Positions 19,749 to 58,221 of a DNA stretch of 64,000 nucleotides are shown piece after piece. The number at the start of each line of letters is the position of its first letter. Positions within the stretch are counted from its first letter, which is position 1. The position numbers were made by a program, and so were the translations under genes. The stretch comes from an uncultured bacterium. GTDB taxonomy: Bacteria > Atribacterota > Atribacteria > Atribacterales > Caldatribacteriaceae. The notes beneath the pieces are model-generated. The model saw only the letters and a program-made list of their open reading frames with translations, searched no databases and was not told where the DNA came from. Location of the stretch: contig CAKZPS010000030.1 of assembly GCA_937139415.1 (NCBI GenBank), forward strand, positions 1-64,000. Reading direction: 5' to 3'.

Positions 19749-19809
19749 CTTTTTCTCCAAAAATAAATTATCTTTTATCATCAGAATTGCACTTAACGGA
19801 GGGACGATC

Positions 19810-41047: not shown

Positions 41048-41074
41048 CGCGGGAGGGGCCTTACCCCTCCCGCG
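41048..41074. terminator. Bidirectional terminator hairpin
   Basis: An 11-base-pair GC-rich stem (41048-41058 with 41064-41074) with loop CCTTA. It lies between the convergent NifU-like and formate-channel genes and covers the stop codon of the latter. No T tract. Confidence 0.7.
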
Positions 41075-42678: not shown

Positions 42679-44373
42679 ATGCTCAGCGATTTAGCAATCG
42701 CCCAAAATGCTGCAATGGAGCCAATTCAAAAAATTGCCGAGACAATGGGGCTCAGAGAAGAAGAGATAGAACTCTACGGGAAGTACAAGGCAAAAGTTTC
42801 TCTTGACGTGTTAGAGCGCCTAAAAACCAAATCCTTGGGAAAATATATCGATGTTACTGCTATTACTCCTACCCCTCTTGGGGAGGGGAAGACAGTGACG
42901 ACCATCGGTCTCTCTATGGCGCTCAATAAAATCGGTAAAAAGAGCATCGTGTGTATTCGGCAACCGTCTCTGGGTCCGGTTTTTGGCATCAAAGGTGGCG
43001 CCGCGGGGGGAGGATACGCACAAGTGGTCCCTATGGAGGATTTCAATCTCCACCTCACCGGAGATACCCATGCGGTAGCCATTGCCCATAATCTCTTGGC
43101 TGCTTTCATCGATAATCACCTCTTCCATGGGAACAAGTTGAATATTGATCCTTTTACCATAAGTTGGCCTCGGGTAGTTGACGTAAGCGACCGGGCTCTT
43201 CGTCACATCGTTATCGGATTAGGAGGAAAAGATAACGGTATTCCTCGGGAAACCGGCTTTGACATTGCAGTGGCTTCTGAGGTGATGGCGATTTTAGCCC
43301 TCACCACCGATCTATTCGACTTGCGGAAACGCTTAGGGAGAATCGTGGTCGGGTATACGAAGGACAAAAGACCGATCACCGCTGAAGACCTCCAATGCGC
43401 CGGGGCGATGACCGTCCTTTTGAGAGAGGCGATCAAACCCAATCTTCTCCAAACTCTGGAGAATACCCCTTGCTTCGTTCATGCGGGGCCTTTCGCAAAC
43501 ATTGCCCACGGTAATAGTTCCATTATTGCCGACCAAATTGCCCTCCGATTGAGCGAGTATGTAGTCACGGAAAGCGGTTTTGGAGCAGACTGTGGAATGG
43601 AAAAATTCATGAATATCAAATGTCGCTATAGTGGTCTTCAACCCGATTGTATAGTGATGGTATGTTCGATCCGAGCTCTCAAAATGCATAGCGGTAAATA
43701 CAAAGTGGTACCCGGAAAACCGCTCGATGCGGAAATGCTCAAAGAGGACTTAGAAGCTCTCATCAAGGGTTCGGAGAATCTGGTGAAGCAAATTGAGAAT
43801 GCCCGCTTATTCGGTGTTCCGGTAGTGGTAGCCATCAACGTGTTCTCCACCGATACCGAAAGGGAAATCGAAACCGTGCACCGGATCGCTCTCGATAGTG
43901 GGGCGTTTGCCGCCGAGGTTTCGGAAGTATGGGCCAAAGGCGGTGACGGTGGACGGGCATTGGCGGAAACGGTGGTGAGAGCATGTGACGAACCCCACCA
44001 TTTCCAATTCCTCTATCCCCTTGACCTTCCCATCAAAGAAAAGATTGAAATTATCGCCACCAAAATCTACGGTGCGGAGAAAGTGGTGTATGAGAATTCG
44101 GCCGAAGACAAGATCAAACAATTCACCGATCTCGGCTGGGCTCATTTATCGATCTGTATGGCGAAAACCCATCTCTCTCTTTCCCATGATCCCAAATTGA
44201 AGGGAAGACCGCGTGGTTTTACCCTCCCCATCAAGGATATTCGTCCCTCTATCGGGGCTGGATTCCTCTACCCTCTGTGTGGGGAAATGCGTACCATGCC
44301 TGGTTTACCCTCGGAGCCAGCAGGAAATAGAGTAGATATCGATGCAACGGGGAAGATTATCGGTCTCTTTTAA
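42679..44373 (+). CDS. fhs: Formate-tetrahydrofolate ligase
   Basis: A 564-residue ATP-dependent synthetase that joins formate to tetrahydrofolate, the first methyl-branch step of the Wood-Ljungdahl pathway. The P-loop is in PTPLGEGKTVTTIGL near residue 60, and KGGAAGGGYAQVVPMEDFNLHLTGD is the long family signature. It heads the array of redox genes, followed after 17 bases by the short HdrA-like gene. FolD and FchA are absent from the window, so the next methyl-branch steps must be encoded elsewhere. Confidence 0.97.
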   Translation: MLSDLAIAQNAAMEPIQKIAETMGLREEEIELYGKYKAKVSLDVLERLKTKSLGKYIDVTAITPTPLGEGKTVTTIGLSMALNKIGKKSIVCIRQPSLGPVFGIKGGAAGGGYAQVVPMEDFNLHLTGDTHAVAIAHNLLAAFIDNHLFHGNKLNIDPFTISWPRVVDVSDRALRHIVIGLGGKDNGIPRETGFDIAVASEVMAILALTTDLFDLRKRLGRIVVGYTKDKRPITAEDLQCAGAMTVLLREAIKPNLLQTLENTPCFVHAGPFANIAHGNSSIIADQIALRLSEYVVTESGFGADCGMEKFMNIKCRYSGLQPDCIVMVCSIRALKMHSGKYKVVPGKPLDAEMLKEDLEALIKGSENLVKQIENARLFGVPVVVAINVFSTDTEREIETVHRIALDSGAFAAEVSEVWAKGGDGGRALAETVVRACDEPHHFQFLYPLDLPIKEKIEIIATKIYGAEKVVYENSAEDKIKQFTDLGWAHLSICMAKTHLSLSHDPKLKGRPRGFTLPIKDIRPSIGAGFLYPLCGEMRTMPGLPSEPAGNRVDIDATGKIIGLF

Positions 44374-44390: not shown

Positions 44391-45362
44391 TTGAAGTGTG
44401 ATGCCCTCATCATCGGTGGAGGAGTAGCCGGTTTAGCGGTAGCCGAGACCTTGCTTCCTTCTCTTCAGGTTACCGTTCTTGAAGAGGAGCGTCTCGGTGG
44501 ATTGGCATGGCAGTTAGGGTGCAAGGCCACTACGGAGTGTTTAGCATGCGGGGTATGTCGATCGCTTGAGATGAAGAGAAAAGCGAGTCGCTTTCCCGTC
44601 TTACTCGGAGAACGAATCACCACCGTGGAACGACAAAACGGAGGTTTCAAAATCACCACCCAAAAAAGAGCTATAGAAACGCGTTTTGTGGTCATTGCCA
44701 CCGGTGCTTCTCCTTTTCCTCCCCAGCGCATGCCTCAATTTGGTTTCGGTACCCTAAAATGGGTGTATAGTGGTTTCGATTTAGAAAAGAAGTTGAATCG
44801 AGAAGGGCTCAATGAATTTGCGCCTTTTCACGAGATCGCCTTCATTCAATGCGTCGGTTCCCGCAATTTCCAAGAGAAACGAGGATATTGTTCTCAAGTG
44901 TGTTGTCGCTACGCCCTGCGGTTGGCGGAGAACTTGCTCTTTCGTTTCCCCCATCTCCATATCGATTTTTACTACATGGATCTGCAAGTGTTTGGGAAAA
45001 AGAGTGAAAAATTGTGGGAGACGAGCGAGAAAGTCAAACTCATCCGTAACCTGCCTTTTGCGGCGGAAGAGGGAAACGGTAAGTTATCAGTAGTTTTCGA
45101 GGGGGAGAGAGGGGTATCCCGAGAGAAGTACGACGCGATCATCCTCTCCGTAGGAATGATTCCCTCATCTGGAACGAAGAGAATGGTTGAACTCCTCCAT
45201 TTGACCTCTACCGTAGAAGGGTTCATCAAGGACTACGGAGGAGGAGTAACCTCGCAAGAGGGGATTTTGGTCTGTGGTACTGCAAGTGGTCCCAAAGACA
45301 TCGAAACGAGTACGAGGGAAGCCCGAATGGTGGGCGAAAAAATTAAAAGGATGGAAAATTGA
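44391..45362 (+). CDS. HdrA-like FAD oxidoreductase, N-terminal half of a split HdrA
   Basis: A 323-residue flavoprotein. The FAD loop GGGVAGLAVAE is at 9-19. A cysteine pair (C50, C53) corresponds to the CAMC block of HdrA, and IQCVGSRNF with YCSQVCCRYALRLAENLL is an unmistakable HdrA signature. The C-terminal FAD contact is LVCGTASGPKDIETSTREA. It lacks the other Fe-S domains and the second half of HdrA, parts of which appear in the next gene. TTG 44391 follows AGAGGGGGG. This looks like a trimmed subunit of the redox complex rather than an independent enzyme. Confidence 0.82.
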   Translation: MKCDALIIGGGVAGLAVAETLLPSLQVTVLEEERLGGLAWQLGCKATTECLACGVCRSLEMKRKASRFPVLLGERITTVERQNGGFKITTQKRAIETRFVVIATGASPFPPQRMPQFGFGTLKWVYSGFDLEKKLNREGLNEFAPFHEIAFIQCVGSRNFQEKRGYCSQVCCRYALRLAENLLFRFPHLHIDFYYMDLQVFGKKSEKLWETSEKVKLIRNLPFAAEEGNGKLSVVFEGERGVSREKYDAIILSVGMIPSSGTKRMVELLHLTSTVEGFIKDYGGGVTSQEGILVCGTASGPKDIETSTREARMVGEKIKRMEN

Positions 45363-45375
45363 GGAGGAAAATGGT

Positions 45376-46785
45376 TTGAAGAGAATTCTTTGGCTCTGTG
45401 GCAAAAAGGGGGATTTCCCCCTTCCCTTCATCCAGGAAATGGAAGAGAAAACCCAAGTGGCAATAGAGGTACGAGAGTGGGAAGAGGATTCCTCCCTTCA
45501 GGGTTATGAGGGCGTATTTCTTCTTGCCGATGCTCTCTCCTTGACTTTCGAAGAAATGATTCGTTTTGCTTTTCAAAAGAGTTTCAATCCTTTGAAAATT
45601 CGTCTCTTTCCTTGGGAAGAGGTAAAAAGACTCTACGGTGTTCCCTCCGCACACAAAACATGGGAACGGTTTTTCGTCGAAGCCTTGGCCACCTTGAACC
45701 ACCCTCTCCCCCTCTCCGTAGTCCATCACTTTCCCGAGAGGCGGGTTCTCCTTTTGCCCCATAGTGCAGAAAATCTCAAACAAGCTCTGGAGCAAGCAGG
45801 TTTTGTGGTTGCATCGCCTCTTGAGTCGGTAACTATTGCTCGCCAAGGGATCAACTTCTCGTTGTATGCTCCTTCCTTTCAAACCACGGTTGGAGCAATA
45901 GTAGTCGTTCCCGAATGGCAAGAGGAAACTCCCTTTCTCATCCCCCAAGAAGTAGAAGAGACCCGCAAAATCCTCCCCCTCTCGTCTTTCTCAACCCTTC
46001 TTCTCCAGAGAGAGTGGCGCAAGCGAACTATCGTTTTCCTCATGCCCAAAGGTAATCAATCTAAAGCAGAGTGGAGAGAGACCTTTCGCTTGACTCAAGA
46101 GCTTGCCGGGGAGAGGAAGGCTCGGGTATGGGTTTTAGCCGAAGAAGTTTTCGTGGCCGGCTCCTCCTTCGAGGCTATGTATCGAGAGGCCCGGGGTGAG
46201 GGAGTGATCTTTGAGAAAGTGGACCTCTCCAAGCTTTCTCTCCGTCCAAGCAGAGATATGCGGCAAATATGGGTAGAATTTCAGAGTGAACGCGACGCTT
46301 ACCCCTTGAGGATTCAAGCCGATTGGGTGGCATACTCGTATAAACGAACCTGTCTTCCTTTCCTCCTTCCCTCACTTTGGAAAGAACCTTTCTTCCCCTC
46401 TTCACTCAACGACCTCGAAAACCCCAACCTGCAATCGTTTGCCTCCTCCCTCCGAGGAATTTTCGTCTCTTCCCAGTACGATGAGGATGATTTCCCTTCT
46501 CTCCTCCAATCTCTCGAGAGTTATTTCCGTGAGGGAATATTTTCCCTCTCATCCGGTGGGACGGTGGACGAGGAGAAGTGTGTGCTCTGCCTCACCTGTA
46601 TGCGCACTTGTCCCTGGAAGGCCGTCGAGATCGATGGGAAAACCCGAGGGAAGAAGGCGAAAATCAATTGGGAGCAGTGTCATCTCTGCGGGATGTGCTT
46701 TGCCTTCTGTCCAGCATCGGCAATTGTCGTGAATAGTCTCCCCCAGCGCGATTTCCTGTTCATACGGGATCTTCGAGGTGAGTGA
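45376..46785 (+). CDS. HdrA-derived iron-sulfur protein with two C-terminal ferredoxin clusters
   Basis: A 469-residue protein with no FAD loop. The central part contains SFEAMYREARGEGVIFEKVD, the counterpart of the YERAKREGIRFVKG segment of full HdrA. The last 70 residues hold two [4Fe-4S] motifs, CVLCLTCMRTCP and CHLCGMCFAFCP. The first 300 residues are divergent. Together with the preceding gene it seems to make up one HdrA split in two, with the flavin in the first part and the electron wire in the second. TTG 45376 follows GGAGGAAA by six bases. Function beyond electron transfer is inferred. Confidence 0.65.
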   Translation: MKRILWLCGKKGDFPLPFIQEMEEKTQVAIEVREWEEDSSLQGYEGVFLLADALSLTFEEMIRFAFQKSFNPLKIRLFPWEEVKRLYGVPSAHKTWERFFVEALATLNHPLPLSVVHHFPERRVLLLPHSAENLKQALEQAGFVVASPLESVTIARQGINFSLYAPSFQTTVGAIVVVPEWQEETPFLIPQEVEETRKILPLSSFSTLLLQREWRKRTIVFLMPKGNQSKAEWRETFRLTQELAGERKARVWVLAEEVFVAGSSFEAMYREARGEGVIFEKVDLSKLSLRPSRDMRQIWVEFQSERDAYPLRIQADWVAYSYKRTCLPFLLPSLWKEPFFPSSLNDLENPNLQSFASSLRGIFVSSQYDEDDFPSLLQSLESYFREGIFSLSSGGTVDEEKCVLCLTCMRTCPWKAVEIDGKTRGKKAKINWEQCHLCGMCFAFCPASAIVVNSLPQRDFLFIRDLRGE

Positions 46786-46790
46786 CGAAG

Positions 46791-47162
46791 ATGAAGATAG
46801 CTTCTCTTGGCTGTGATAAGAGTGGTTTTCCCGCCCTCCTCCGTTTTTTGGCCGAATATCCCCAGTACCGAATGGATGTTACCGCCGTACCGTGTTTGGG
46901 AATGGTGAACGAAGGTATGATGCTTCAAGCTTTTGAGAACGGATACCGCGGTCTTCTCTTAGCCGGTTGTCCCATAGAGAGTTGTCACAATCAGAAGGGG
47001 AGCCATTACGCTCTTCTCAAGGCTGAACGGGTGAATACCCTCCTTGAAGAGGCAAAGCTTCCCATGAGAGTCACATGTGCTCTCTTGACCATGGATAAAA
47101 TTGCCGAGATCAAGAGAGCACTCGATGAACTCCTTCCTTTCCTTAAGGAGAGAGAGCAATGA
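46791..47162 (+). CDS. MvhD-like iron-sulfur protein, divergent
   Basis: A 123-residue relative of MvhD/FlxD, the [2Fe-2S] subunit that hands electrons to HdrA. The blocks VPCLGMVN and GCPIESCHNQKGS match the family's CxG and GCxxxxCHxxxGN motifs. The usual N-terminal CxxC is reduced to C-D-K-S, so a cluster ligand has changed. It is after the split HdrA and before metV, implying that it links the split HdrA to the MetVF reductase. ATG 46791 is preferred to GTG 46782. Its last four bases overlap the metV start. Confidence 0.75.
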   Translation: MKIASLGCDKSGFPALLRFLAEYPQYRMDVTAVPCLGMVNEGMMLQAFENGYRGLLLAGCPIESCHNQKGSHYALLKAERVNTLLEEAKLPMRVTCALLTMDKIAEIKRALDELLPFLKEREQ

Positions 47163-47809
47163 TTGTTGGGGAAAGAAAACCATTATCCATCGTCATCGAA
47201 AATTTGAGCCCGTGGAGAAAAATTTTGGTTTTAGGTTGCGGGACCTGTGTGACGGTATGCATGTCGGGAGGAGAAAAGGAGGCGCAGGAGGTAGCCGCGA
47301 TTTTGCGCCTGCGAGGGTTCCAGGCCCGGGCATTGACCATCGAAAGACAGTGTGAAATGGAGTTTAACCGAAAGTTCGCCGAGGAAATCAATCGTGAAGA
47401 AGTAGTGCTCTCCTTAGCTTGCGGTATCGGAGTACAAATACTCTCCGATCTCTTCCCCCAAAAACCGATCTTCCCGGGGGTGAATACCACTTTCATGGGT
47501 GCTCCCATCGTTCAAGGTTTGTGGGAGGAGCGGTGCTCCGGGTGTGGCGATTGCATCGTTCATCTCTTCGGGAACATTTGTCCGGTGACCCGCTGCGCGA
47601 AAAGCCTCCTCAACGGTCCTTGTGGCGGCTCGCAGAAAGGGAAGTGTGAAGTCAAACCAGAGAGAGATTGTGCTTGGCAACTCATCTACGATCGGATGAG
47701 AGAACAAGGGAGACTGGAAGAGCTCCTCCGCATCCACCCCCCCAAAGATTGGTCATCTTCTCGTTACGGAGGGCAGAGAAAAATGCTTCGGGAGGATGTG
47801 TACCTATGA
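47159..47809 (+). CDS. metV: MetV, zinc/Fe-S partner of methylene-tetrahydrofolate reductase
   Basis: A 216-residue protein corresponding to the MetV subunit found with MetF in acetogens. The N-terminal part has GCGTCVTVCMSGG and an adenosine-like fold, and the C-terminal zinc region has CSGCGDC, CPVTRCAKSLLNGPCGG and GKCEV. MetV is required for activity of acetogen-type methylene-THF reductases and probably conducts electrons to MetF's flavin. It overlaps the metF start in ATGA. Confidence 0.92.
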   Translation: MIVGERKPLSIVIENLSPWRKILVLGCGTCVTVCMSGGEKEAQEVAAILRLRGFQARALTIERQCEMEFNRKFAEEINREEVVLSLACGIGVQILSDLFPQKPIFPGVNTTFMGAPIVQGLWEERCSGCGDCIVHLFGNICPVTRCAKSLLNGPCGGSQKGKCEVKPERDCAWQLIYDRMREQGRLEELLRIHPPKDWSSSRYGGQRKMLREDVYL

Positions 47810-48717
47810 GCTTCCTCCAGAAACTCTTAAAGAGTGGAACCTTTGTGGTGACCGCGGAAGTTGGACCCCCTAAGGGTTGCGAGCGAAGTGTGATCGAAAA
47901 GAAGTGCCGCGAACTCTTCGACTACGTCGATGCCGTCAACGTTACCGATAACCAAACCGCCATCGTTCGTCTGAGTAGCTTTGCCAGTTCTCTCATCGCC
48001 CGAGAATGCGGCGTCGAGCCGGTGATGCAGATGGTGTGCCGTGACCGAAATCGTATCGCCTTGCAGAGCGATTTTCTGGGTGCATGTGCCTTGGGGATCG
48101 AAAATTTCCTCTGTCTCACCGGTGACCATCAGAGCATGGGAAACCATCCCCATTCCAAGAACGTTTTCGATATCGATTCCATCCAACTCTTGCAGATCCT
48201 CTCTGACCTCCGGGACAAGAAGGTGTTCCAGAATGGTGAAGCGGTGAAAGGCGAAATTCGTGCCTTCCTGGGAGCAGGAGAGAATCCTTTTGCCGACCCG
48301 ATGGAATTTCGGGTCTATCGTTTGGCGAAGAAAATCGAAGCAGGTGCCCAATTCATCCAGACTCAGGCGGTATTCGACCTTGAACCCTTCGCGCGTTTCA
48401 TGGAAGAGGTTCGGGCGATGAAACTCCATGAGAGAGCGTTCATTCTCGCCGGGGTGATCCCGGTGAAATCTCTGAACGCCATCCGCTACATGCAGAGTGA
48501 AGTGCCGGGACTGGTGATCCCTCCCTTCCTCGTCGAGCGCATGGAGAAAGCCCGAGATCCTAAGGAGGAGGGTATAGCGATGTGCGTAGAGATCATCGAA
48601 GCGGTCAAGAAAATCGAAGGGGTGAGAGGGGTCCACATCATGGCCATTGCTTGGGAAAGTGTGGTTCCCGAGATTGTGGTACGTAGCGGCCTCTACCCCC
48701 GACCAAAGAGAGGATAG
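47806..48717 (+). CDS. metF: Methylene-tetrahydrofolate reductase
   Basis: A 303-residue (beta-alpha)8 flavoenzyme that reduces 5,10-methylene-THF to 5-methyl-THF. TAEVGPPKG near the N-terminus carries the catalytic Glu, followed by NVTDNQTAIVR, the LCLTGDHQSMG block and the FIQTQAVFDLEPF region typical of MetF. It follows metV with coupled translation and precedes hdrC, repeating the metVF-hdr linkage of Moorella-type acetogens. The longer upstream frame lies inside metV and is not used. Confidence 0.96.
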   Translation: MSFLQKLLKSGTFVVTAEVGPPKGCERSVIEKKCRELFDYVDAVNVTDNQTAIVRLSSFASSLIARECGVEPVMQMVCRDRNRIALQSDFLGACALGIENFLCLTGDHQSMGNHPHSKNVFDIDSIQLLQILSDLRDKKVFQNGEAVKGEIRAFLGAGENPFADPMEFRVYRLAKKIEAGAQFIQTQAVFDLEPFARFMEEVRAMKLHERAFILAGVIPVKSLNAIRYMQSEVPGLVIPPFLVERMEKARDPKEEGIAMCVEIIEAVKKIEGVRGVHIMAIAWESVVPEIVVRSGLYPRPKRG

Positions 48718-48723
48718 AGTAGC

Positions 48724-49218
48724 ATGAAGGAAGTCAGTCAAGCTCATCACTTCAAGTACCAAGTGGCTTCGCGCACCGGAGGAGAAGGGCTCCTCGTGTG
48801 CTTTTCCTGTGGAGTGTGTACTGCAGGTTGTCCGGTTGCAGAAGTAGAAGGGGGATTCAACCCTCGGCGGATCATCCATCAAATCCTCTTAGGAGAGAAA
48901 GAAGAGCTTCTCACTTCCAAGTATTTGTGGATGTGTGTGGGGTGTTACCGTTGTACCGCCCACTGTCCACAGAACGTGGAATTCACGAACATCCTCAAAG
49001 TATTACGGGAAATAGCCATCGAAGAAGGGTACGTGAGTAAAGAATGGAAGGCAATCATCGAAGACCTGGATCGAGAGACCCAGAAACTCCGTCGCAATTG
49101 TATTGATTACCTCTGGGAAAAGAAGGTTACCTCTTTTCCTGAGTATCTCCACCTCTACGCCGATGCCACCAAAGAACTCCCTTGGATGAGGGAGGGAGAA
49201 CCTGATGGAGAACGGTAA
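48724..49218 (+). CDS. hdrC: HdrC-like dicluster ferredoxin subunit
   Basis: A 164-residue protein with two [4Fe-4S] motifs, CFSCGVCTAGCP and CVGCYRCTAHCP, placed about 40 residues apart as in heterodisulfide reductase subunit C. The C-terminal part is helical and would dock on its partner. The normal partner HdrB, with two CCG domains, is missing from the locus, so electrons probably go to MetVF or to another subunit. Its stop overlaps the HdrA fusion gene by 14 bases. Confidence 0.9.
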   Translation: MKEVSQAHHFKYQVASRTGGEGLLVCFSCGVCTAGCPVAEVEGGFNPRRIIHQILLGEKEELLTSKYLWMCVGCYRCTAHCPQNVEFTNILKVLREIAIEEGYVSKEWKAIIEDLDRETQKLRRNCIDYLWEKKVTSFPEYLHLYADATKELPWMREGEPDGER

Positions 49219-52200
49219 TCGTCCTAAGGGCGCGGTGATGATCCTGGGAGGGGGAATAGGAGGAATTCAATCCGCTTTAGACTTAGCCAATGCCGGTTTC
49301 AAGGTATATGTGGTAGAAAAGTCCTTCTCCATCGGTGGTCTCATGGCACGTTTAGATAAGACTTTCCCCACCAACGACTGTGCCATGTGCATTCTCTCTC
49401 CGAAACTGGTAGAGTGTGGAAGGCACCGGAATATCGAAATCCTCTCCTATGCTCAAGTTGAGTCCATCCAAGGTACTCCTGGTCACTTTCAGGTGAGAGT
49501 GAGGAGGAAGTGTCGCTTTGTCGACCCCGAGCAATGCACGGGGTGCGGGGATTGTGCCCAAGTGTGCCCGGTAGAGGTACCCAACGAATTCGACGGATTC
49601 TTGGGGAAACGGAAGGCCATTTATCGCCCTTTCCCCCAAGCCTTCCCCAGCGCTTTCGGGATCGAAAAGAGGGGAGCCCCTCACTGTCAAGCCGCTTGCC
49701 CCTTAGAGCAGAAAGCGGAAGGGTATGTGGCCCTCCTCGGTCACGAACGCTTTGAAGAAGCCCTCCAAGTGATCAAAATGGATAACCCCTTCCCGGGTAT
49801 CTGTGGAAGGGTTTGTCATCATCCCTGTATGGAAGAGTGTCAGCGAGGACTGCTTGACCAAGCCATTGGCATCCCCTACCTCAAGCGTTTTCTCGCCGAC
49901 TACGAGCAAGAGAAAAATTTAACCATCCTTCCTCCCCGACAAGGAGAACGCCCAGAGCGAGTGGCTATCGTGGGGGGAGGGCCGAGTGGTCTCAGCTGTG
50001 CCTACTTTTTGCGGATTTTGGGGTATCAAGTCACCCTCTTTGAGGCTCAAGATCGTTTAGGAGGGATGATGACCTTCGGCATTCCTTCCTACCGTCTCCC
50101 CCGGGAAATTATCGCAGGAGAGATAGAAGCTGTAAAAGCCTTAGGAGTAGAGGTTCTCTTGGGTAAGTGTTGGGGAGATGATTTCCTCCTCGACCACCTC
50201 TTTGCCCAGGAATTCCAAGCCGTGTACCTGGCCTGCGGAGCGTGGACGGGAATGAAAGCAGGAGTGCCGGGAGAAGACCACCCCAGAGTTGTGGATGGAC
50301 TCACCTACCTCTACCGTATGAATAGGGGTGAGAAACTCCCCGAAGCTAAGAAGGTAGTGATCGTCGGAGGAGGGAATGTAGCCATCGACTGTGCGCGTAG
50401 CGCCCTCCGCCACGGTGCTGAACAAGTGGCTCTCTACTATCGTCGCTCCAGAGAAGAGATGCCCGCCCGTCCCGAAGAAATCCAAGAGGCGGAAGAAGAA
50501 GGGGTGGCATTCTTCTTCTGCGCCAGTCCCAAGGAGTTTGTGGAGCAAGACGGTCACTTGGTGATGAAGTGCTACGTGATGAAGCTCTGTGCTCCTGATG
50601 AATCCGGACGGAGAAAACCGGAGATCATCCCGGGGGTAAAACACGAAGTGGAAGCGGACCTCTTCATCATCGCCATCGGACAGAGAGTTTCCCTTCCGGA
50701 GGCTACTCTCCGCCTCACCCCTTCGGGGACGATTATGGTAGATGAGGGGCTCCGCACCTCGCGTCCGGGGGTTTTCGCCGGAGGAGACGCTGTCCTCGGA
50801 CCGGCGACGCTTGTGGAAGCCATTGCCCATGGAAAGAGAGCGGCGTTCTCGATCGATGCCTACCTCTCGAAAAGAGAATTCCACCCCGAGACCCCTTCCC
50901 CTGCGCCCCTTTCCATTCCCTGGGAGCGAAAACAAGAACCTCGGGTGGAACCGAGGAAACTCCCGGTAAGTCAACGTTTGCGAAGTTTTGAAGAGGTTAC
51001 CCAAGGGTATAGTCAGGAAGAAGCAGTAAGAGAGGCCAAGCGGTGCCTCCTCTGTGGAGGATGTTCGGAATGTATGCAGTGTGTCGCGGCGTGTCGCCGA
51101 GGCGCCATTCAACATGAAGAGAGAGAAAGAATCGAAGAAATCGAGGTTGGAGCAGTCATCGTTGCTTCCGGTATGGGGGTTTTCGATCCCACCCAAACCT
51201 ACCGGGAGCTAGGGTACCGAAAGTACCCTAACGTGATCACCAGCCTCGATTTTGAGCGGATTCTCAATGCCTCGGGTCCTTTCCAAGGGAAAGTCGTCCG
51301 ACCGTCTGACGGCAAGACCCCCCGTCGGATTGCCTTCATCCAGTGCGTGGGATCTCGAGATGACAAGCGAGGTCGATCCTACTGTTCCTCGGTATGCTGT
51401 ATGTACGCTATCAAAGAGGCCTTGGTGGCCAAGGAACACCTCTTAGTGGAGAAGAAGGCACACCACAAGGAAATGGTGTGTGCTCCCCACGCTCCTTTTC
51501 ATTCTTCCCAAGACGAAGAAGAACCTATCCTCGAGGTTACCATCTTTGCCATCGACGTTCGGGCCCATGGGAAGGACTTTGAACGGTACTATGAGCGCGC
51601 TAAACGAGAGGGAATTCGCTTCGTGAAGGGAAAAGTGGGGAAAATCCAGGAAGTAAACGGTGGTGATTTAGAAGTTTTCTACACTTCTTGCGACAGCGGG
51701 ATCCAGAGAGAAACCTTCGATCTTGTGGTCCTCTCGGTGGGCTTGTCCCTCACCGAAGAGGAGAAGAATTATTTGGAAAAGCTGGATATTTCCCTTGCTC
51801 CTTGGGAAACGCCTTATCTTGAGGGAATGGCTGCCCTCCGTTCTTCCCGCGAGGGAGTGTGGCTGTGTGGAACGGTCAACGCCCCGAAGGATATCCCCGA
51901 GACGGTTCAAGAGGCGAGCGCTTGTGCCTGTGAAGTAGCCTCGTTCCTCCATCCAGCCCGCTTCAGCGAAGTGACGGAAAAGGAATACCCTCCAGAACAA
52001 GACGTAGCTAACGATCCCGTACGGATCGGGGTATTCATCTGCCGTTGTGGTCTCAATATCGCTGGAGTCGTGAATACCCAAGATTTAGTGGAATGGGCGA
52101 AAAGTTTCCCTGGAGTGGTTTACGCCGAGGAGAATTTGTACACTTGTTCTCAAGATACCCAGGAGAGAATAAAAGAGAAGGTGAGAGAGCATCGCCTCAA

Positions 52201-53680
52201 TCGGGTGGTGGTAGCCTCGTGTTCTCCCCGCACTCATGAATCCCTCTTCCGGGAAACCTTAAAAGAAGTAGGGCTCAACCCTTATCTCTTCGAAATGGCC
52301 AATATTCGGGATCAGTGTTCTTGGGTACACCAAGCTTGGCCACAAGAAGCGAACCAAAAGGCGAAAGACCTCGTAGCCATGGCGATTGCTAAGGTGTCTT
52401 GGCTCGAACCGCTTCAACCGGTGGTCCTCCCGGTAGAAAAGTCGGTTCTCATCATCGGAGGAGGATTAGCAGGAATGATGGCCTCCTTAGAGGCTGCACA
52501 ACAAGGGTTACAGGTTTTCTTAGTAGAGAAAGAGAAGGAATTGGGTGGTCAACTGAGAGATTTCCACCATCGTTTCACCATCGAGGGAGAGGATTTAGTG
52601 GCTCTCGCACGGAAACTCAAAGAGCAGATTCTCGCCCATCCCCACATCGAAGTCATCACCGAAGGAAGAATCTTAGAGAGTAGTGGCTTCGTGGGAAACT
52701 TTGAAACGGTGATCTTTGAGCGAGGAGGAAAGCGAACCATCCGTCACGGCGGGGTCATCATAGCGATCGGAGGAGAAGAGTATCATCCTTCTGACCTCCC
52801 TTACCCGAAGAGAGAGCGGGTTATCACCCAAACGGAACTCGAAAAACTCCTCGAAGATGCTTCTTTCCATCCTCGAAGGGTAGTAATGATCCAGTGTGTC
52901 GGCTCTCGCAATGCCGAGCGCCCCTATTGTAGTCGAGTGTGCTGTCTCTCTGCTCTGAAGAATGTTCTCCGCCTCAAGGATCGTTATCCTGAGGGAGAAA
53001 TTTACCTCCTCTACCGGGACATACGCAGTTACGGTTTATACGAGCGCTACTACCGCGCAGTGCGGGAGAAAGGAGTAGTGTTCATTCCCTTTGCCGACGA
53101 AGCAATGCCTCAGCTTTTGGAGAGAGAGGGTACCCTTTTCGTCCAAGTGGAGAGTGCCCTTCTCGGAGAAACTATTACCCTTGCCCCGGATTGGGTGATA
53201 CTGAGTACCGGGGTGAAAGCCCCTCAAGACGCGCCGGAAATTGCCCAACTCTTCAAAGTCCCCTTGCAACAAGATGGATTTTTTCTCGAAGCCCATGTCA
53301 AACTCCGTCCGGTCGATTTCGCTACTGAGGGAGTGTTCGTCTGTGGTCTTGCCCACGGTCCGAAAACGGCCAGAGAAACTTTGGTCCAGGCCAAGGCTTG
53401 CGTTGCTCGACTCATGACCTTCCTGAGTCAGGACACCATCCATGCCGAGGCGCAAATCGCAACCGTTCAAGAAACTCGCTGTACTGCTTGTGGGGATTGC
53501 GAACTCTTGTGCCAGTACCAAGCGGTGAAGGTCAATCGAGAGAGGAGAGTTGCCGAGGTGAACCCGGCTCTGTGTAAAGGGTGTGGTTTATGCAGTGCGA
53601 CCTGTAAGAGCGGGGCGATCCGGGTCCAAGGGTTTTCCTCTGAGCAAATCGTCTCGGAGGTGGAGTATCTCCTATGGTAG
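49205..53680 (+). CDS. HdrA-GltD-HdrA fusion, multi-flavin electron-bifurcation subunit
   Basis: A 1,491-residue protein with three flavin modules. Residues 10-125 are the start of an HdrA, with FAD loop GGGIGG and a [4Fe-4S] motif (C111, 114, 117, 121). Residues 155-560 are a GltD/NfnB-like NAD(P)H-FAD module, with CQAACPLEQ, GICGRVCHHPCMEECQRG, GGGPSGLSCAY and GGGNVAIDCARSA, inserted into HdrA. Residues 605-915 resume the first HdrA, including IQCVGSRDD. A second complete HdrA runs from FICRCGLN (940) through ASCSPRTHESLF, FAD loop GGGLAG (1084) and two ferredoxin motifs near the C-terminus. This gives one chain that can take hydride from NAD(P)H and split electrons. ATG 49205 overlaps hdrC. 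Confidence 0.9.
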   Translation: MENGNRPKGAVMILGGGIGGIQSALDLANAGFKVYVVEKSFSIGGLMARLDKTFPTNDCAMCILSPKLVECGRHRNIEILSYAQVESIQGTPGHFQVRVRRKCRFVDPEQCTGCGDCAQVCPVEVPNEFDGFLGKRKAIYRPFPQAFPSAFGIEKRGAPHCQAACPLEQKAEGYVALLGHERFEEALQVIKMDNPFPGICGRVCHHPCMEECQRGLLDQAIGIPYLKRFLADYEQEKNLTILPPRQGERPERVAIVGGGPSGLSCAYFLRILGYQVTLFEAQDRLGGMMTFGIPSYRLPREIIAGEIEAVKALGVEVLLGKCWGDDFLLDHLFAQEFQAVYLACGAWTGMKAGVPGEDHPRVVDGLTYLYRMNRGEKLPEAKKVVIVGGGNVAIDCARSALRHGAEQVALYYRRSREEMPARPEEIQEAEEEGVAFFFCASPKEFVEQDGHLVMKCYVMKLCAPDESGRRKPEIIPGVKHEVEADLFIIAIGQRVSLPEATLRLTPSGTIMVDEGLRTSRPGVFAGGDAVLGPATLVEAIAHGKRAAFSIDAYLSKREFHPETPSPAPLSIPWERKQEPRVEPRKLPVSQRLRSFEEVTQGYSQEEAVREAKRCLLCGGCSECMQCVAACRRGAIQHEERERIEEIEVGAVIVASGMGVFDPTQTYRELGYRKYPNVITSLDFERILNASGPFQGKVVRPSDGKTPRRIAFIQCVGSRDDKRGRSYCSSVCCMYAIKEALVAKEHLLVEKKAHHKEMVCAPHAPFHSSQDEEEPILEVTIFAIDVRAHGKDFERYYERAKREGIRFVKGKVGKIQEVNGGDLEVFYTSCDSGIQRETFDLVVLSVGLSLTEEEKNYLEKLDISLAPWETPYLEGMAALRSSREGVWLCGTVNAPKDIPETVQEASACACEVASFLHPARFSEVTEKEYPPEQDVANDPVRIGVFICRCGLNIAGVVNTQDLVEWAKSFPGVVYAEENLYTCSQDTQERIKEKVREHRLNRVVVASCSPRTHESLFRETLKEVGLNPYLFEMANIRDQCSWVHQAWPQEANQKAKDLVAMAIAKVSWLEPLQPVVLPVEKSVLIIGGGLAGMMASLEAAQQGLQVFLVEKEKELGGQLRDFHHRFTIEGEDLVALARKLKEQILAHPHIEVITEGRILESSGFVGNFETVIFERGGKRTIRHGGVIIAIGGEEYHPSDLPYPKRERVITQTELEKLLEDASFHPRRVVMIQCVGSRNAERPYCSRVCCLSALKNVLRLKDRYPEGEIYLLYRDIRSYGLYERYYRAVREKGVVFIPFADEAMPQLLEREGTLFVQVESALLGETITLAPDWVILSTGVKAPQDAPEIAQLFKVPLQQDGFFLEAHVKLRPVDFATEGVFVCGLAHGPKTARETLVQAKACVARLMTFLSQDTIHAEAQIATVQETRCTACGDCELLCQYQAVKVNRERRVAEVNPALCKGCGLCSATCKSGAIRVQGFSSEQIVSEVEYLLW

Positions 53681-54114
53681 AACTCAATGCGTGGGAACCG
53701 AAAATTGTGGCCTTTCTCTGTCACTGGTGTAGTTACGCGGGAGCAGACCTTGCGGGGGTGAGCCGTATCCAATACCCACCCAATATTCGGATCATCCGGG
53801 TTCCTTGTTCGGGTGCCATCAATCCCCTCTATATCCTTAAAGCTTTTCGCGAAGGAGCCGATGGAGTACTCGTGTCAGGGTGTCACCCCGGTGATTGTCA
53901 CTACTTGAGTGGAAACTACTTCGCCCGGAGGAAATTCTTCCTACTCAAGGAACTCCTCATCTTCGCAGGTATCGAGGAAGAACGACTTCAGTTCTCCTGG
54001 GTTTCTGCTTCTGAGGGACAGAAGTTTTCCCAGGTTATAGAGCAAGTAGTAGAAGGAGTGAAAAAGATTGGCCCATCAAAGAAAGGCCTAAAGGAGTTTG
54101 CCTTCCATGTATGA
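53674..54114 (+). CDS. mvhD: MvhD/FlxD [2Fe-2S] electron-transfer subunit
   Basis: A 146-residue protein with the complete MvhD motif set: CHWCSYAGAD (residues 16-25), VPCSGAINPLY, and GCHPGDCHYLSGN. It docks on HdrA and feeds it electrons from hydrogenase, formate dehydrogenase or a flavin subunit. Its start overlaps the HdrA fusion gene by seven bases, so the two are made together. Compared with the copy at 46.8 kb it keeps the N-terminal CxxC. Confidence 0.93.
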   Translation: MVELNAWEPKIVAFLCHWCSYAGADLAGVSRIQYPPNIRIIRVPCSGAINPLYILKAFREGADGVLVSGCHPGDCHYLSGNYFARRKFFLLKELLIFAGIEEERLQFSWVSASEGQKFSQVIEQVVEGVKKIGPSKKGLKEFAFHV

Positions 54115-55045
54115 ACGAGCGTTGACGGAACTTGCGTCAAAAATCCTTGGCGAAGTCGAAGGAATCATCGGATACGCACCGGGCTCCCTCCCTTTCCACA
54201 TGCGTCCCTTCTTGTGTCAGAGAGAGGAAGATATTGCGTGCCTCTCGTTCAACCATTTCGCGCGTCCTAACTTAGCTCGCTACCTCCTCACTCTGGAGAT
54301 GAGAAAGAAAAGAGTAGCCATCGTGGTAAAGGGTTGCGACGCTCGGACGGTGATCGTTCTCCTCAAGGAAGGACAGGTGAAACGGGAGAATCTCTACCTC
54401 ATCGGAGCACCTTGCCACGGAATGGTCAGTGTATCCAAGTTGGAGGAACGCTTTGGGGTACTCTCCCCTCCTGATTTTGTATGGGAAGCCGATACCTTCA
54501 CGTGGCGAGGGGAACGTTTTGCCATACGGGACTTTCTTGAAGACTCTTGCGAACGTTGTGCCTATCCTAATCCCCCCTGGTACGATGCGCTCCTCGGAGA
54601 AGAACTCCCAAAACCTCCGGTTCTACCCGGAGGTAGAGACTACCTGGGGAGAATCAAGGCTCTTCCCCTCGAAAAGCGCTGGGAATTTTTCGCTCAAGAA
54701 ATGGAGAAGTGTATCCGCTGCTACGCCTGTCGAAATTCTTGCCCCCTCTGTTACTGCACAGAGTGCTTTGTCGATCAAACTCGTCCCTCGTGGTTGAGTC
54801 AAGCGGCGACGAGGAACGAAAATCTCTTCTTCCATTTGGGGCGGAGTCTGCACATGGCTGGACGATGTACGGAGTGTGGAGCCTGTGAGCGTGCCTGTCC
54901 CTTAGGTATTCCCATCGGGCTCTTACCCTTATACGTAGAAGAACTTATCCGGGAACATTTCGCCTTCGAGGCAGGGATGAACCTCGATACTCCTGCACCC
55001 CTTTTGACCTATCGGGAAAACGACCCCAACGAGTTCATTCGATGA
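54107..55045 (+). CDS. FrhB/FdhB-like iron-sulfur subunit
   Basis: A 312-residue protein of the F420-dehydrogenase-beta / formate-dehydrogenase-beta group. The N-terminal half has KKRVAIVVKGCDARTVIVLL, a conserved block of the group; the C-terminal half has CIRCYACRNSCP, CYCTECF and CTECGACERACP Fe-S motifs, two or three clusters. No F420 genes are seen, so a flavin or ferredoxin role is more likely, as for FlxB-type proteins. ATG 54107 is preferred with AAAGGAG eleven bases upstream. Its first eight bases overlap mvhD. Confidence 0.82.
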   Translation: MYERALTELASKILGEVEGIIGYAPGSLPFHMRPFLCQREEDIACLSFNHFARPNLARYLLTLEMRKKRVAIVVKGCDARTVIVLLKEGQVKRENLYLIGAPCHGMVSVSKLEERFGVLSPPDFVWEADTFTWRGERFAIRDFLEDSCERCAYPNPPWYDALLGEELPKPPVLPGGRDYLGRIKALPLEKRWEFFAQEMEKCIRCYACRNSCPLCYCTECFVDQTRPSWLSQAATRNENLFFHLGRSLHMAGRCTECGACERACPLGIPIGLLPLYVEELIREHFAFEAGMNLDTPAPLLTYRENDPNEFIR

Positions 55046-55056
55046 GAGGGAGAACC

Positions 55057-56034
55057 ATGAAGGGAAAATTTGTGACTCACGAGCAAGTCTTTACCTGGAT
55101 GGAGAGAGAAAGAGGTCTTGTGGTGATCACGGAAAGAGCACAAAAAAAGTACCACCATCTCCTCCCTTCTCACCTCATCACCGTGAAAACAGCCAAGGAA
55201 CTCTTTTTTTCTCCCTGGGAAGCGGTGTACCGCTATACTCTCCAAGGGAAAACCTGGGTGATCGAGGAAAAAGTGGAACATTCCTCTTTCCCTTCCTTTC
55301 TTGTGCTCTTACCTTGTGAAGCGAAGGCGATTCTTGAAGTCACGGACGTAAACTTCATGACCGAGGACACTCCTGACTTGGGTTATGCCCGAAGGCGGAG
55401 AGGGGTAACCTTGATCATCGTCGGTTGCGAAAGGATCGAGCAAACCTGCTTCTGTTCCTTAGTAGGATGTAGCCCTTTTTGGCGCCACCGCGAGAGCGTG
55501 TTTCTCTTTCCTTGGAAGGGTCATTTCTACCTCGAGGATGGAGAGGAAAAACTCTCCCTTTCCCCTTTCGAAGACCCCCAAAAAGCACAAGCGGTGGAAA
55601 CCTTTTTCGCTGAGACCATCTGTACTTTGCCTTTGCCTCTCCCGGCGAACTTTCCCGAAAAGTTGTACGCGCATTTCGATGATCCCTTGTGGCAGAAGAT
55701 GGCCTGGCACTGCGTGAATTGTGGTGCCTGTACCTACCTCTGTCCCACCTGTTACTGTTTCGATCTCAGTGTGGATGGGAAGCTCCGGGGTTTGACCCTT
55801 CACACCTGGGATAGCTGTATGTTCCCCAAGTTCACCCTTCACGCTTCTTCCCACAATCCCCGTCCTACCGGGAAAGAACGGGTGAGACAGCGGGTTATGC
55901 ACAAATTTTCCTATTTCCCCCTGCGGAACAAATACTATGGATGTGTAGGGTGTGGAGTGTGTCGAGAGATATGCCCAGTCAATTGGGACATTAAAGAGGT
56001 CGTAGAAGGGATGGTGAGGCAGGTTGAACGGTGA
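55057..56034 (+). CDS. Sulfhydrogenase-beta / AsrA / FlxC-like iron-sulfur subunit
   Basis: A protein of about 325 residues. The N-terminal two thirds resemble AsrA and HydB (ShyB) proteins, with LLPCEAKAILEVTDVNFM, GVTLIIVGCERIEQTCFCSLVGCSP. The C-terminal third has CVNCGACTYLCPTCYCFD and CVGCGVCREICPVNWD, two [4Fe-4S] clusters. It pairs with the next gene in many anaerobes to move electrons between NAD(P)H and Fe-S clusters. ATG 55057 is taken; ATG 55042 would overlap the previous stop. The end overlaps the next gene by 11 bases. Confidence 0.85.
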   Translation: MKGKFVTHEQVFTWMERERGLVVITERAQKKYHHLLPSHLITVKTAKELFFSPWEAVYRYTLQGKTWVIEEKVEHSSFPSFLVLLPCEAKAILEVTDVNFMTEDTPDLGYARRRRGVTLIIVGCERIEQTCFCSLVGCSPFWRHRESVFLFPWKGHFYLEDGEEKLSLSPFEDPQKAQAVETFFAETICTLPLPLPANFPEKLYAHFDDPLWQKMAWHCVNCGACTYLCPTCYCFDLSVDGKLRGLTLHTWDSCMFPKFTLHASSHNPRPTGKERVRQRVMHKFSYFPLRNKYYGCVGCGVCREICPVNWDIKEVVEGMVRQVER

Positions 56035-56875
56035 AGTGGGAATCAGAATCAAAGAGAAGAACATTTACGTTCCTACCATGGTCCCCATTCTCGAAGTGAT
56101 TCAAGAGACCAGAGATATTAAAACTTTTCGTGTGCAAAGGCCGAGTTCCTTCTTTTACCATCCCGGACAATTCGCCGAAATTTTTGTCCCGGGGAAGGGA
56201 GAAGCTCCCTTTTCCATTACCTCTTCTCCCCAAGAGGAACGGTTCCTCGAATTCAGCATAAAACGAATTGGCGTAGTGACCGATGCCCTCCACCGCTTGA
56301 ATCCGGGTGATTCGGTGGGGGTGCGGGGACCCTACGGTAATGGGTTTCCCGTATCATCGTTACTTCACTCCTCTCTCCTTTTCATCGGAGGAGGTATCGG
56401 ATTGGCGCCTCTCCGTTCGCTCATTAACTACGTCCTCTCGCCTCAAGAGAGAATAAACTTCCGAGAAATCATTCTCCTCTACGGAGCTCGTACTCCCCAG
56501 GATTTGGTCTTCCAGTGGGAACTCAAGCGTTGGGCAGAACATAGAGACCTCACCCTTTGGGTAACGGTGGACCAAGGAGATTCTTCCTGGTCAGGGATAG
56601 TCGGATTGGTTCCCGAGGTGTTGAAAAAAGTAGTTGAGGTGGAACCAATAGGCTGGAAGAGCATCGTCTGTGGGCCCCCTATTATGATAAAATTCACTAT
56701 CAAAGCACTCCTTGAAATGGGATTTCAAGTAAAGGACATCATTACCACCTTGGAGATGCGTATGAAGTGCGGGGTAGGTAAGTGTGGACGGTGTAACATT
56801 GGTCCCTACTACGTATGTAAGGATGGACCGGTGTTTTCCTACCAAGAGTTACAAGAAATGCCGGAAGAGTATTGA
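56024..56875 (+). CDS. FAD/NAD(P)H oxidoreductase, sulfhydrogenase-gamma / AsrB / FlxA-like
   Basis: A 283-residue flavoprotein of the ferredoxin-NADP reductase superfamily. The FAD motif is PFSITSSP, the nicotinamide loop GGGIGLAPLRSL, and a C-terminal [2Fe-2S] site is formed by CGVGKCGRCN and YVCKDGPVF. With the preceding subunit it forms a diaphorase that injects electrons from NAD(P)H into the Hdr core through MvhD. The start is probably TTG 56024, inside the previous gene, or ATG/ATC starts nearby; the ribosome site is not strong. Confidence 0.88.
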   Translation: MNGEVGIRIKEKNIYVPTMVPILEVIQETRDIKTFRVQRPSSFFYHPGQFAEIFVPGKGEAPFSITSSPQEERFLEFSIKRIGVVTDALHRLNPGDSVGVRGPYGNGFPVSSLLHSSLLFIGGGIGLAPLRSLINYVLSPQERINFREIILLYGARTPQDLVFQWELKRWAEHRDLTLWVTVDQGDSSWSGIVGLVPEVLKKVVEVEPIGWKSIVCGPPIMIKFTIKALLEMGFQVKDIITTLEMRMKCGVGKCGRCNIGPYYVCKDGPVFSYQELQEMPEEY

Positions 56876-56889
56876 GGAAGGTGAGGAGA

Positions 56890-58221
56890 ATGACTTACCA
56901 AAAAGCAGTACAATATTTGTACAGTTTGATTGACTATGAAAAAAGCCCCATGAGATATACAGACTTAAAATTAGAACGGATGCGGGAGCTCGTGGAGAGA
57001 ATCGGTAATCCGCAGCATGCGTTTCCCGTCATCCTCATCGCTGGAACAAAAGGAAAAGGGAGCACTGCCTACTTTCTCATGCGCCTTCTCTCCGCCTGGG
57101 GTATGAAGTGTGGATTCCATTCTAAACCCCACCTCTTCACTTTCCGAGAACGAATCCGTATTGGGGAGACATGCATTACTCCACAAGATGTCGCTTTTCT
57201 CGTTGATTACTTGATCCCCATCGTAAAGGAGATGGAACGAAATTCTCCCTTTGGAAGGCCAACCTATTTTGAAGTAACGGTGGCCTTAGCGTTTCTCTAT
57301 TTTTCATGGCACAAAGTCGACGTAGCAGTGGTGGAAGTAGGATTGGGAGGGAGGTTAGATGCTACCAACGTCTGTGACCCGCAATTAACCATCATCACTC
57401 CCATTAGTTTCGATCACATGGAAATTTTGGGGGGAACTCTCTCGGCCATTGCCAGAGAGAAGGCGGGAATTCTGCGGCCCCACACCAAACTCATCCTCGC
57501 TCCCCAAGAAGAAGAAGCCTATCGTACCATTTGTGAGGAAGCGAGAAGGAAAAACGTACCGGTACGCTTCCTCAAAGAGTGGTGTTCCTGGAACATCTCG
57601 ACGCGAAATCGATCTGGGTCTCAATTCTCCTGGAAAATCAACGAGTGGGGCGAAGGAGAACATGCGCTTCCCATTCTGGGAGATCATCAAGTGCAAAATT
57701 TCATGACCGCTCTCCTTGCACTCAAAGAATGGGGTTTTTCCTTCCATGAGGAGAAGCTAACCCGTGCCCTTCAGGGAATGCATTGGCCGGGAAGGATTGA
57801 ACTCTTGTCCTCTCATCCTCTCGTTATTTTCGATGTGGCCCATAACCATGCCTCTTTTCTCCAATTAGTTCGCACTCTCGAGGACTACTTAGGTTGCACA
57901 AAGGTGCTCTTTCTTTTAGGCTTTCTCCAGGGGAAGGAATACGAAAAGATCGCCCAATGCATTACTCCTCTCACAGAGAGAGTGATCCTCACCCAACCCT
58001 TAAACCCCAAAGCAGTAACCCCGTGGGAGATCGCCCATCATTTCGAGGAACAGGGTCTTCCTGTGGAAGTGATTGAAGACCCCTTTGAAGCTCGGGAGAT
58101 AGCTCTCCATTTTGCGCATCACACCCAGCTTCCCCTTGTCATTGCCGGTTCTTTCTATCTCGCTCCGCCATTTTCCCAAGAATTTTCCTTCCTGTGTGAA
58201 AAGGAGGTAGAACTATGTTAA
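56890..58221 (+). CDS. folC: Folylpolyglutamate synthase / dihydrofolate synthase
   Basis: A 443-residue Mur-ligase-type enzyme that adds glutamates to folates. The P-loop is VILIAGTKGKGSTAYFL near 48-64, with FEVTVALAFLYF, VVEVGLGGRLDATNV and the C-terminal FDVAHNHAS block. In a C1 operon it would make the polyglutamyl tetrahydrofolate cofactors that fhs and metF use. It lies 14 bases after the FlxA-like gene and overlaps the AcsE-like gene by seven bases. Confidence 0.95.
   Translation: MTYQKAVQYLYSLIDYEKSPMRYTDLKLERMRELVERIGNPQHAFPVILIAGTKGKGSTAYFLMRLLSAWGMKCGFHSKPHLFTFRERIRIGETCITPQDVAFLVDYLIPIVKEMERNSPFGRPTYFEVTVALAFLYFSWHKVDVAVVEVGLGGRLDATNVCDPQLTIITPISFDHMEILGGTLSAIAREKAGILRPHTKLILAPQEEEAYRTICEEARRKNVPVRFLKEWCSWNISTRNRSGSQFSWKINEWGEGEHALPILGDHQVQNFMTALLALKEWGFSFHEEKLTRALQGMHWPGRIELLSSHPLVIFDVAHNHASFLQLVRTLEDYLGCTKVLFLLGFLQGKEYEKIAQCITPLTERVILTQPLNPKAVTPWEIAHHFEEQGLPVEVIEDPFEAREIALHFAHHTQLPLVIAGSFYLAPPFSQEFSFLCEKEVELC

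Follow-up and report, generated by a model that had tools for sequence, protein, structure and literature searches.

The DNA analysed here is a 64,000-nt stretch (the window; contig CAKZPS010000030.1 of assembly GCA_937139415.1) from an Atribacterota bacterium related to Caldatribacterium, and the MetV loci closest to it were found in records of Candidatus Atribacteria and Candidatus Caldatribacterium. An earlier note had reported eleven adjacent genes on one strand between positions 44391 and 56875, which were said to link an Hdr-Flx type complex to methylenetetrahydrofolate (methylene-THF) reductase. All eleven were recovered as open reading frames (ORFs) on the plus strand, with uninterrupted frames, plausible starts and spacings of -17 to +17 bases. 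The cluster opens with a two-gene HdrA-like system, HdrA', composed of o1 (44391-45362), an HdrA-type FAD domain resembling TrxR, and o2 (45376-46785), a pseudo-HdrA with a C-terminal 2x[4Fe-4S] domain. They are followed by o3, or MvhD' (46782-47162), a small MvhD/FlpD-like protein with a weak PF02662 match of 61 bits. Next come metV (47159-47809; PF12225, 129 bits), metF for the methylene-THF reductase (47806-48717; PF02219, 132 bits), hdrC with two CxxCxxCxxxC motifs (48724-49218; TIGR03290, 87 bits) and a giant HdrA of 1491 amino acids (aa) (49205-53680; NF040770, 981 bits). The last four genes encode MvhD/FlxD (53674-54114; PF02662, 185 bits), an FdhB/FrhB-like protein with 2x[4Fe-4S] in the FlxC position (54098-55045), an AsrA/ShyB/HydB-like protein, also with 2x[4Fe-4S], in the FlxB position (55042-56034) and a FlxA-like NAD(P)H/FAD/[2Fe-2S] diaphorase of the AsrB/ShyC/HydG family (56024-56875).

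The gene content of the source genome was probed family by family with Pfam and NCBIfam profiles. Matches of this kind bore out the families proposed earlier for MetV, MetF, HdrC, the giant HdrA, the two MvhD-type proteins, the AsrA/ShyB-like subunit and the AsrB/ShyC/HydG-like one. The 54098-55045 protein scored below the Pfam cut-off for FrhB (21.5 against 23.3 bits), and its assignment is backed by matches to the FdhB chains of solved complexes (E 2e-26). The PF12225 match of metV was the only one in the genome; its product was 53% identical to Moorella MetV in an alignment that also showed the cysteines to be conserved. The proposed connection of MetVF with HdrA, HdrC, MvhD and a Flx-like NAD(P)H diaphorase agrees with these family matches, and flavin residues of the bifurcating type are present.

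The earlier note had treated the cluster as metVF-hdrABC and flx-hdrABC simply joined together. This view needs correcting, because HdrB is missing from both the cluster and the genome. The CCG domain, which defines HdrB, gave no match anywhere in the source genome in a profile search that was positive in 12 of 14 reference genomes used as a control. Genome-wide searches were equally negative in four relatives, one of them represented by a single contig, and in six genomes from outside Atribacterota that carry the cluster. A profile made from Moorella HdrB had no match in the window cluster or in similar clusters, while it does recover this subunit from loci of the Moorella type (e.g. HdrB of L093, 4143-5027). 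The possibility that HdrB is supplied from elsewhere in the genome was rejected for the source organism, since no CCG match was found there. Within the open-access literature we found no description of an HdrB-less MetVF-Hdr complex or of an Atribacterota version of this cluster.

The genes o1, o2 and o3 constitute a second HdrA system. What had been called a split HdrA is indeed encoded by two genes, and the split is conserved, but the identity of the products needed refinement. o1 retained the FAD motif, E132 and the 4Fe-4S ligand pattern C154/C167/C171/C172, and it has gained a CKATxxCxxCGVC motif. The lysine associated with bifurcation was replaced by Arg177, so that o1 does not carry the E/K signature of bifurcating HdrA. 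The same replacement was seen in all 12 aligned copies of HdrA', and a motif search found the arginine also in one copy each of L031, L043, L057, L069, L073 and L090. The reading frame of o2 opens at 45274 and its most likely start is the TTG at 45376. The o2 protein combines an HdrA N-domain with a TrxR fold lacking both GxGxxG and the TrxR cluster cysteines; its C-terminal two-cluster domain is the only intact part. An AlphaFold2 model of o2 had a pLDDT of 85, and the best seven Foldseek matches were all HdrA chains (E 2e-19 to 1e-17). Because the o2 counterpart in a spirochaete (L047) retained a flavin-type motif, decay of a former HdrA is the best explanation of the pseudo-HdrA. Taken together, the features of o1 fit best with a flavin protein that does not bifurcate, and those of o2 with a flavin-less pseudo-HdrA. 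o3 carries MvhD-type cysteines in the alignment and was fused to o2 in three Clostridia (L033, L034, L091). All Atribacterota loci checked had o1 and o2 as separate genes, as had some of the Clostridia and Spirochaetes; in the other loci the two were fused. A frameshift or assembly error was rejected as the cause of the split because of its conservation throughout the Atribacterota loci examined. An apparent o1/o2 fusion in one family (an 806-aa open frame) was likewise rejected, as a stop codon lies between the two genes.

The giant HdrA consists of an HdrA N-half, which is interrupted by a GltD domain (aa ~156-640; 49670-51124, plus strand; PRK12771/GltD-type match at aa 156-650), and of a complete second HdrA. 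The NAD(P) motif of the insert, YYRRSREEMPA, contains an arginine pair of the NADPH type. A YRR[ST]xxxEMPA-like motif was present in the window and in 13 other copies of the same architecture, counting those that fitted the search pattern, whereas 12 of 13 HdrA-linked GltD copies of other architectures, Moorella included, had a CLExxxxMPA-like motif. The arginine pair is also present in NfnI, which is NADP-linked. The large subunit of NfnI handles NADP(H), and the motif with the arginine pair binds NADPH. On these motifs the GltD site is predicted to use NADPH, and FlxA may be a second nucleotide port. In the giant HdrA of the spirochaete locus L047 (12141-18128) NuoE-, NuoF- and NuoG-like NADH-input modules stand in the place of GltD.

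The flavin sites of the giant HdrA could be compared with those of known proteins. The bifurcating flavin of Methanothermococcus HdrA is marked by E356 and K409, and Moorella HdrA has an E and a K in each TrxR module as well as a GltD insert (PMC9430772). We confirmed these residues in the 1487-aa HdrA of Moorella thermoacetica (L093). In the window protein they correspond to E684/K737 in the first TrxR module and E1213/K1252 in the second. The lysine of the second module was an arginine in two relatives (L097, L033), so conservation is stronger in the first module. In all, five FAD-type sites are predicted for the gene products, one in o1, three in the giant HdrA and one in FlxA, besides the flavin of MetF, and none is expected in o2.

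The cluster is embedded in a larger set of genes. Upstream are a divergent FocA-family formate/nitrite channel gene (41061-41834, minus strand; PF01226, 224 bits), a gene for an MtgC-like corrinoid protein (41946-42587, plus strand) and fhs for formate-THF ligase (42679-44373, plus strand; PF01268, 876 bits), and glyA also lies on this side. Downstream, folC for folylpolyglutamate synthase (56872-58221, plus strand; TIGR01499, 331 bits) overlaps the cluster, which points to a shared transcription unit. It is followed by a gene for an AcsE-like methyl-THF:corrinoid methyltransferase (58215-59015, plus strand; NF005719, 317 bits, above the cut-off), of which the corrinoid protein is the likely methyl partner. 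A search for the gene order in other genomes, proposed in the earlier note as a check, showed that the 14-gene order fhs-o1-o2-o3-metV-metF-hdrC-hdrA-mvhD-flxC-flxB-flxA-folC-acsE is repeated in eight other genomes. These belong to four families within the taxonomic order, and two of the genomes are single contigs. All 14 genes were found in seven of the loci (L098, L099, L101, L102, L104, L105 and L106), and the eighth (L097) keeps the order as far as its sequence reaches, ending inside folC. The recurrence excludes chance and assembly artefact as explanations of the cluster. The corrinoid gene was immediately 5' of fhs in the stretches of seven relatives (77-90% identity), and focA was next to it wherever the sequence reached. 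The conserved order together with these flanks indicates that the cluster is real and under selection. The presence of the FocA and corrinoid pair beside fhs across the order suggests that formate and methyl-corrinoid are exchanged with the one-carbon operon.

The architecture of the window is not confined to Atribacterota. It was also found in Clostridia (L033, L034, L049, L091), Spirochaetes (L047, L054, L057, L090), Lentisphaerae (L043) and UASB270 (L083), as HdrA'(-MvhD')-metVF-hdrC-hdrA followed by mvhD-flx where the contig reached, and again without HdrB in the cluster. These versions differ from that of the window in that HdrA' is fused in some of them, and the genomes include both some with acetyl-CoA synthase (ACS) and some without. 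In a MetVF tree the architecture fell into two groups, one of Atribacterota and Clostridia (SH-aLRT 86) and the other of Spirochaetes and relatives. In an HdrA tree the window protein shared a clade with proteins from Atribacterota and Clostridia, to which the metV-adjacent HdrA of Moorella did not belong. Both were quick builds whose roots were not inferred. That both pair Atribacterota with Clostridia having the same gene order is consistent with joint inheritance. Three Bacillota loci (L031, L069, L073) showed HdrA'-metVF-hdrC followed by HdrB and two more HdrA genes, and possibly represent an intermediate architecture. In the genome of a more distant member of Atribacterota, one cluster (L103, 1-18000) encoded HdrB, FrhB-like proteins and more than one HdrA, yet MetV had no match there.

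How far does this system differ from those already described? MetVF-HdrABC-MvhD, the Hdr-type (type IV) methylene-THF reductase known from Moorella thermoacetica and Sporomusa ovata, shares MetV, MetF, HdrC and MvhD with the window. The Moorella HdrA of about 1490 aa even has the same domain order, GltD insert and two E/K flavins as the giant HdrA. In contrast to that type, the window lacks HdrB and has HdrA'-MvhD' added upstream and a Flx module downstream; its GltD nucleotide motif reads RR where that of Moorella reads CLES, and its organism lacks ACS. With FlxABCD-HdrABC of Desulfovibrio vulgaris, whose Flx name we take from the literature, the window shares at family level the FlxA diaphorase, FlxB, FlxC, FlxD (MvhD), HdrA and HdrC. 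The window differs from it in having neither HdrB nor a disulfide site, in the insertion of MetVF and a second HdrA, and in its much larger HdrA. Clusters of the Desulfofundulus/Desulfotomaculum type (flxDCBA, an HmcF/DsrK-like gene, hdrA, mvhD and metVF; L056, L079, L085) unite Flx, HdrA, MvhD and MetVF in one run. Unlike the window, however, they keep a CCG subunit (HmcF/DsrK-like; the domain was tested in L079), lack HdrA'-MvhD', have the reversed order and, in the MetVF tree, make up a clade of their own (98). The suggestion that the gene set is unlike either described one therefore holds only in part. The GltD-containing giant HdrA is Moorella's own (PMC9430772), and the association of Flx, Hdr and MetVF is visible in public genomes. 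What is new is that the design does without HdrB, that HdrA'-MvhD' is specialised and that the host lacks ACS.

The acetogen setting that the comparison with Moorella had implied was not found. ACS (PF03598) had no match in the source genome; 39 of the 41 Atribacterota genomes searched lacked it as well, as did all 22 of high quality, and the cluster's role is therefore not acetogenesis. A survey of Atribacterota published in 2024 likewise reported no ACS and proposed a reductive glycine pathway; it is silent on Hdr and bifurcation (PMC11227167). Its description of the cultured members is that of glucose fermenters producing H2, acetate and CO2 (PMC11227167). The source genome also encodes a second, unrelated methylene-THF reductase, fused to a homocysteine methyltransferase (L114, 247-2073, plus strand; 634 bits to PRK08645). 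With this bifunctional enzyme elsewhere in the genome, methionine synthesis does not require the cluster.

With moderate confidence we regard the eleven gene products as one soluble, HdrB-less relative of the Hdr-type methylene-THF reductase with a Flx input module of its own. The gene content, order and conservation, the absence of HdrB and ACS, the flavin, cluster and nucleotide motifs and the fold of the pseudo-HdrA are observed; from them we infer an assembly as one complex, an electron path, bifurcation, a ferredoxin partner and a direction. As judged from sequence, its most likely activity would be that of an NAD(P)H- and ferredoxin-coupled methylene/methyl-THF oxidoreductase. FlxA would exchange hydride with pyridine nucleotide, and FlxB, FlxC and FlxD (MvhD) would relay electrons to the giant HdrA. 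With its two E/K flavins, NADPH-type GltD site and ferredoxin-like domain, the giant HdrA would bifurcate or confurcate them. The high-potential branch would exit by HdrC and then by HdrA'-MvhD', in the place of HdrB, to MetV and MetF, where MetF would interconvert methylene-THF and methyl-THF, while the low-potential branch would exchange with ferredoxin (Fd). The putative reaction is 2 NAD(P)H + CH2-THF + Fd(ox) <-> 2 NAD(P)+ + CH3-THF + Fd(red). The E0' of NAD(P)H is -320 mV. For the methylene/methyl-THF couple an E0' of -200 mV has been given (PMC5861303). A calculation by hand yielded about -8, +2 and +12 kJ per mol for bifurcation at ferredoxin potentials of -400, -450 and -500 mV. The reaction is thus near equilibrium and probably reversible; its direction cannot be read from the genes, and the reverse is about as feasible.

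A single complex is favoured by the complete run of overlapping, co-directional genes and by its conservation as a block in four families. The E/K residues present in each TrxR module of the giant HdrA, against E/Arg in HdrA', would support a complex in which the giant HdrA is the bifurcating part. In pull-downs from Sporomusa, MetV was linked to HdrA and not to HdrB (PMC9430772), which fits the direct route from HdrA to MetV that an HdrB-less path needs. Several points weigh on the other side. The isolated Moorella complex did not reduce ferredoxin (PMC8578096) and Sporomusa MetVF was purified without Hdr partners (PMC9430772), so that neither tight assembly nor bifurcation is established even for the known relatives. 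Moreover, E/K is a criterion of sequence, a carrier other than ferredoxin could serve as the low-potential partner, and several HdrB-less clusters sit in genomes that have CCG proteins elsewhere.

It might be argued that the operon encodes two enzymes: an NAD(P)H:ferredoxin-type complex of Flx, HdrA and HdrC, and a MetVF that would receive its electrons from HdrA'-MvhD' or from free ferredoxin. MetVF of Clostridium ljungdahlii (PMC8760232) and of Sporomusa (PMC9430772) have been reported to take electrons from ferredoxin, and the giant HdrA groups with flx-adjacent HdrA rather than with the metV-adjacent HdrA of Moorella. The order HdrA'-MvhD'-metVF-hdrC-hdrA, however, interleaves both sets and is kept across phyla, and we consider this arrangement possible but doubtful. 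Much less probable is a reductive electron sink as in acetogens, in which bulk reduction of methylene-THF would re-oxidise NAD(P)H. It has a precedent for the family in Moorella and Sporomusa, but the ACS needed for bulk use of methyl groups is missing from nearly all Atribacterota genomes, as stated above, and no other bulk methyl acceptor was found.

Two further explanations concern the direction or use of the reaction; they can be compatible with a single HdrB-less complex, and our confidences therefore overlap. In one, the complex would run in reverse in ACS-free fermenters. Methyl groups would pass from the corrinoid protein through the AcsE-like methyltransferase to methyl-THF, which would be oxidised by confurcation, reduced ferredoxin helping to push electrons onto NAD(P)+; Fhs would then yield formate and ATP, and formate would leave through FocA. 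The lack of ACS in the source genome agrees with this scheme, as do the genes for the corrinoid protein, FocA, Fhs and the methyltransferase flanking the cluster in relatives, and at -200 mV for the THF couple against -320 mV for NADH, oxidation needs such a push. A gene for an MttB-type methyltransferase was present in the source genome and in 10 of 15 genomes of the order. Its absence from the other five, the single-contig genome G014 among them, has weakened MttB-driven methyl oxidation as a universal role; the MttB gene of the source genome is not beside a corrinoid gene, and the cultured members are described as fermenting glucose (PMC11227167). A methyl-oxidising role is a tentative proposal, rather unlikely as matters stand. 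In the other explanation the complex would only supply methyl-THF for methionine, and the corrinoid protein, the AcsE-like methyltransferase and a homocysteine methyltransferase would form a split methionine synthase. The genome does have two homocysteine methyltransferases, and the corrinoid and methyltransferase proteins match MetH domains. Yet the bifunctional L114 protein makes a 12-kb complex unneeded for methionine alone, and the cluster is located with fhs and focA; we think this purely anabolic use unlikely.

A bolder view may be taken of the cluster, although we hold it to be speculative and on balance unlikely: a distinct class of methylene/methyl-THF oxidoreductase. An ancestral HdrA dimer would have given rise to an active bifurcating half and to a flavin-poor HdrA'-MvhD' relay, which replaces HdrB and passes electrons straight to MetV, with separate ports for NADH and NADPH. 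In Atribacteria such an enzyme would have no part in the Wood-Ljungdahl pathway and would probably serve to gain ATP from the oxidation of methyl groups to formate. Ever since the Moorella complex became known in 2014, it has been a question how methylene-THF reductases of the Hdr type are coupled to a second carrier. The conservation of an HdrB-less version implies that the disulfide-type subunit is dispensable and indicates HdrA'/HdrC as the route to MetV. As the order has cultured members and lacks ACS, it offers a direct test of what the methyl branch does where there is no acetogenesis, and testable predictions follow from the K-to-R flavin site, from the pseudo-HdrA and from the NADPH-type motif of GltD.

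Some minor observations may be added. The MttB-type gene of the source genome (L096, G000:C65:24248-25648) adjoins sugar-transport and dehydrogenase-type genes, and no corrinoid gene was seen among the neighbouring ORFs. Selenocysteine at an in-frame TGA of the MttB homologue was considered and rejected, as this TGA ends a 474-aa ORF. Downstream of the cluster, on the opposite strand, lies a gene for the [FeFe]-hydrogenase maturase HydF (60721-61971). Elsewhere in the window, at 19600-21690, a DAHP synthase is fused to prephenate dehydratase and ACT domains.

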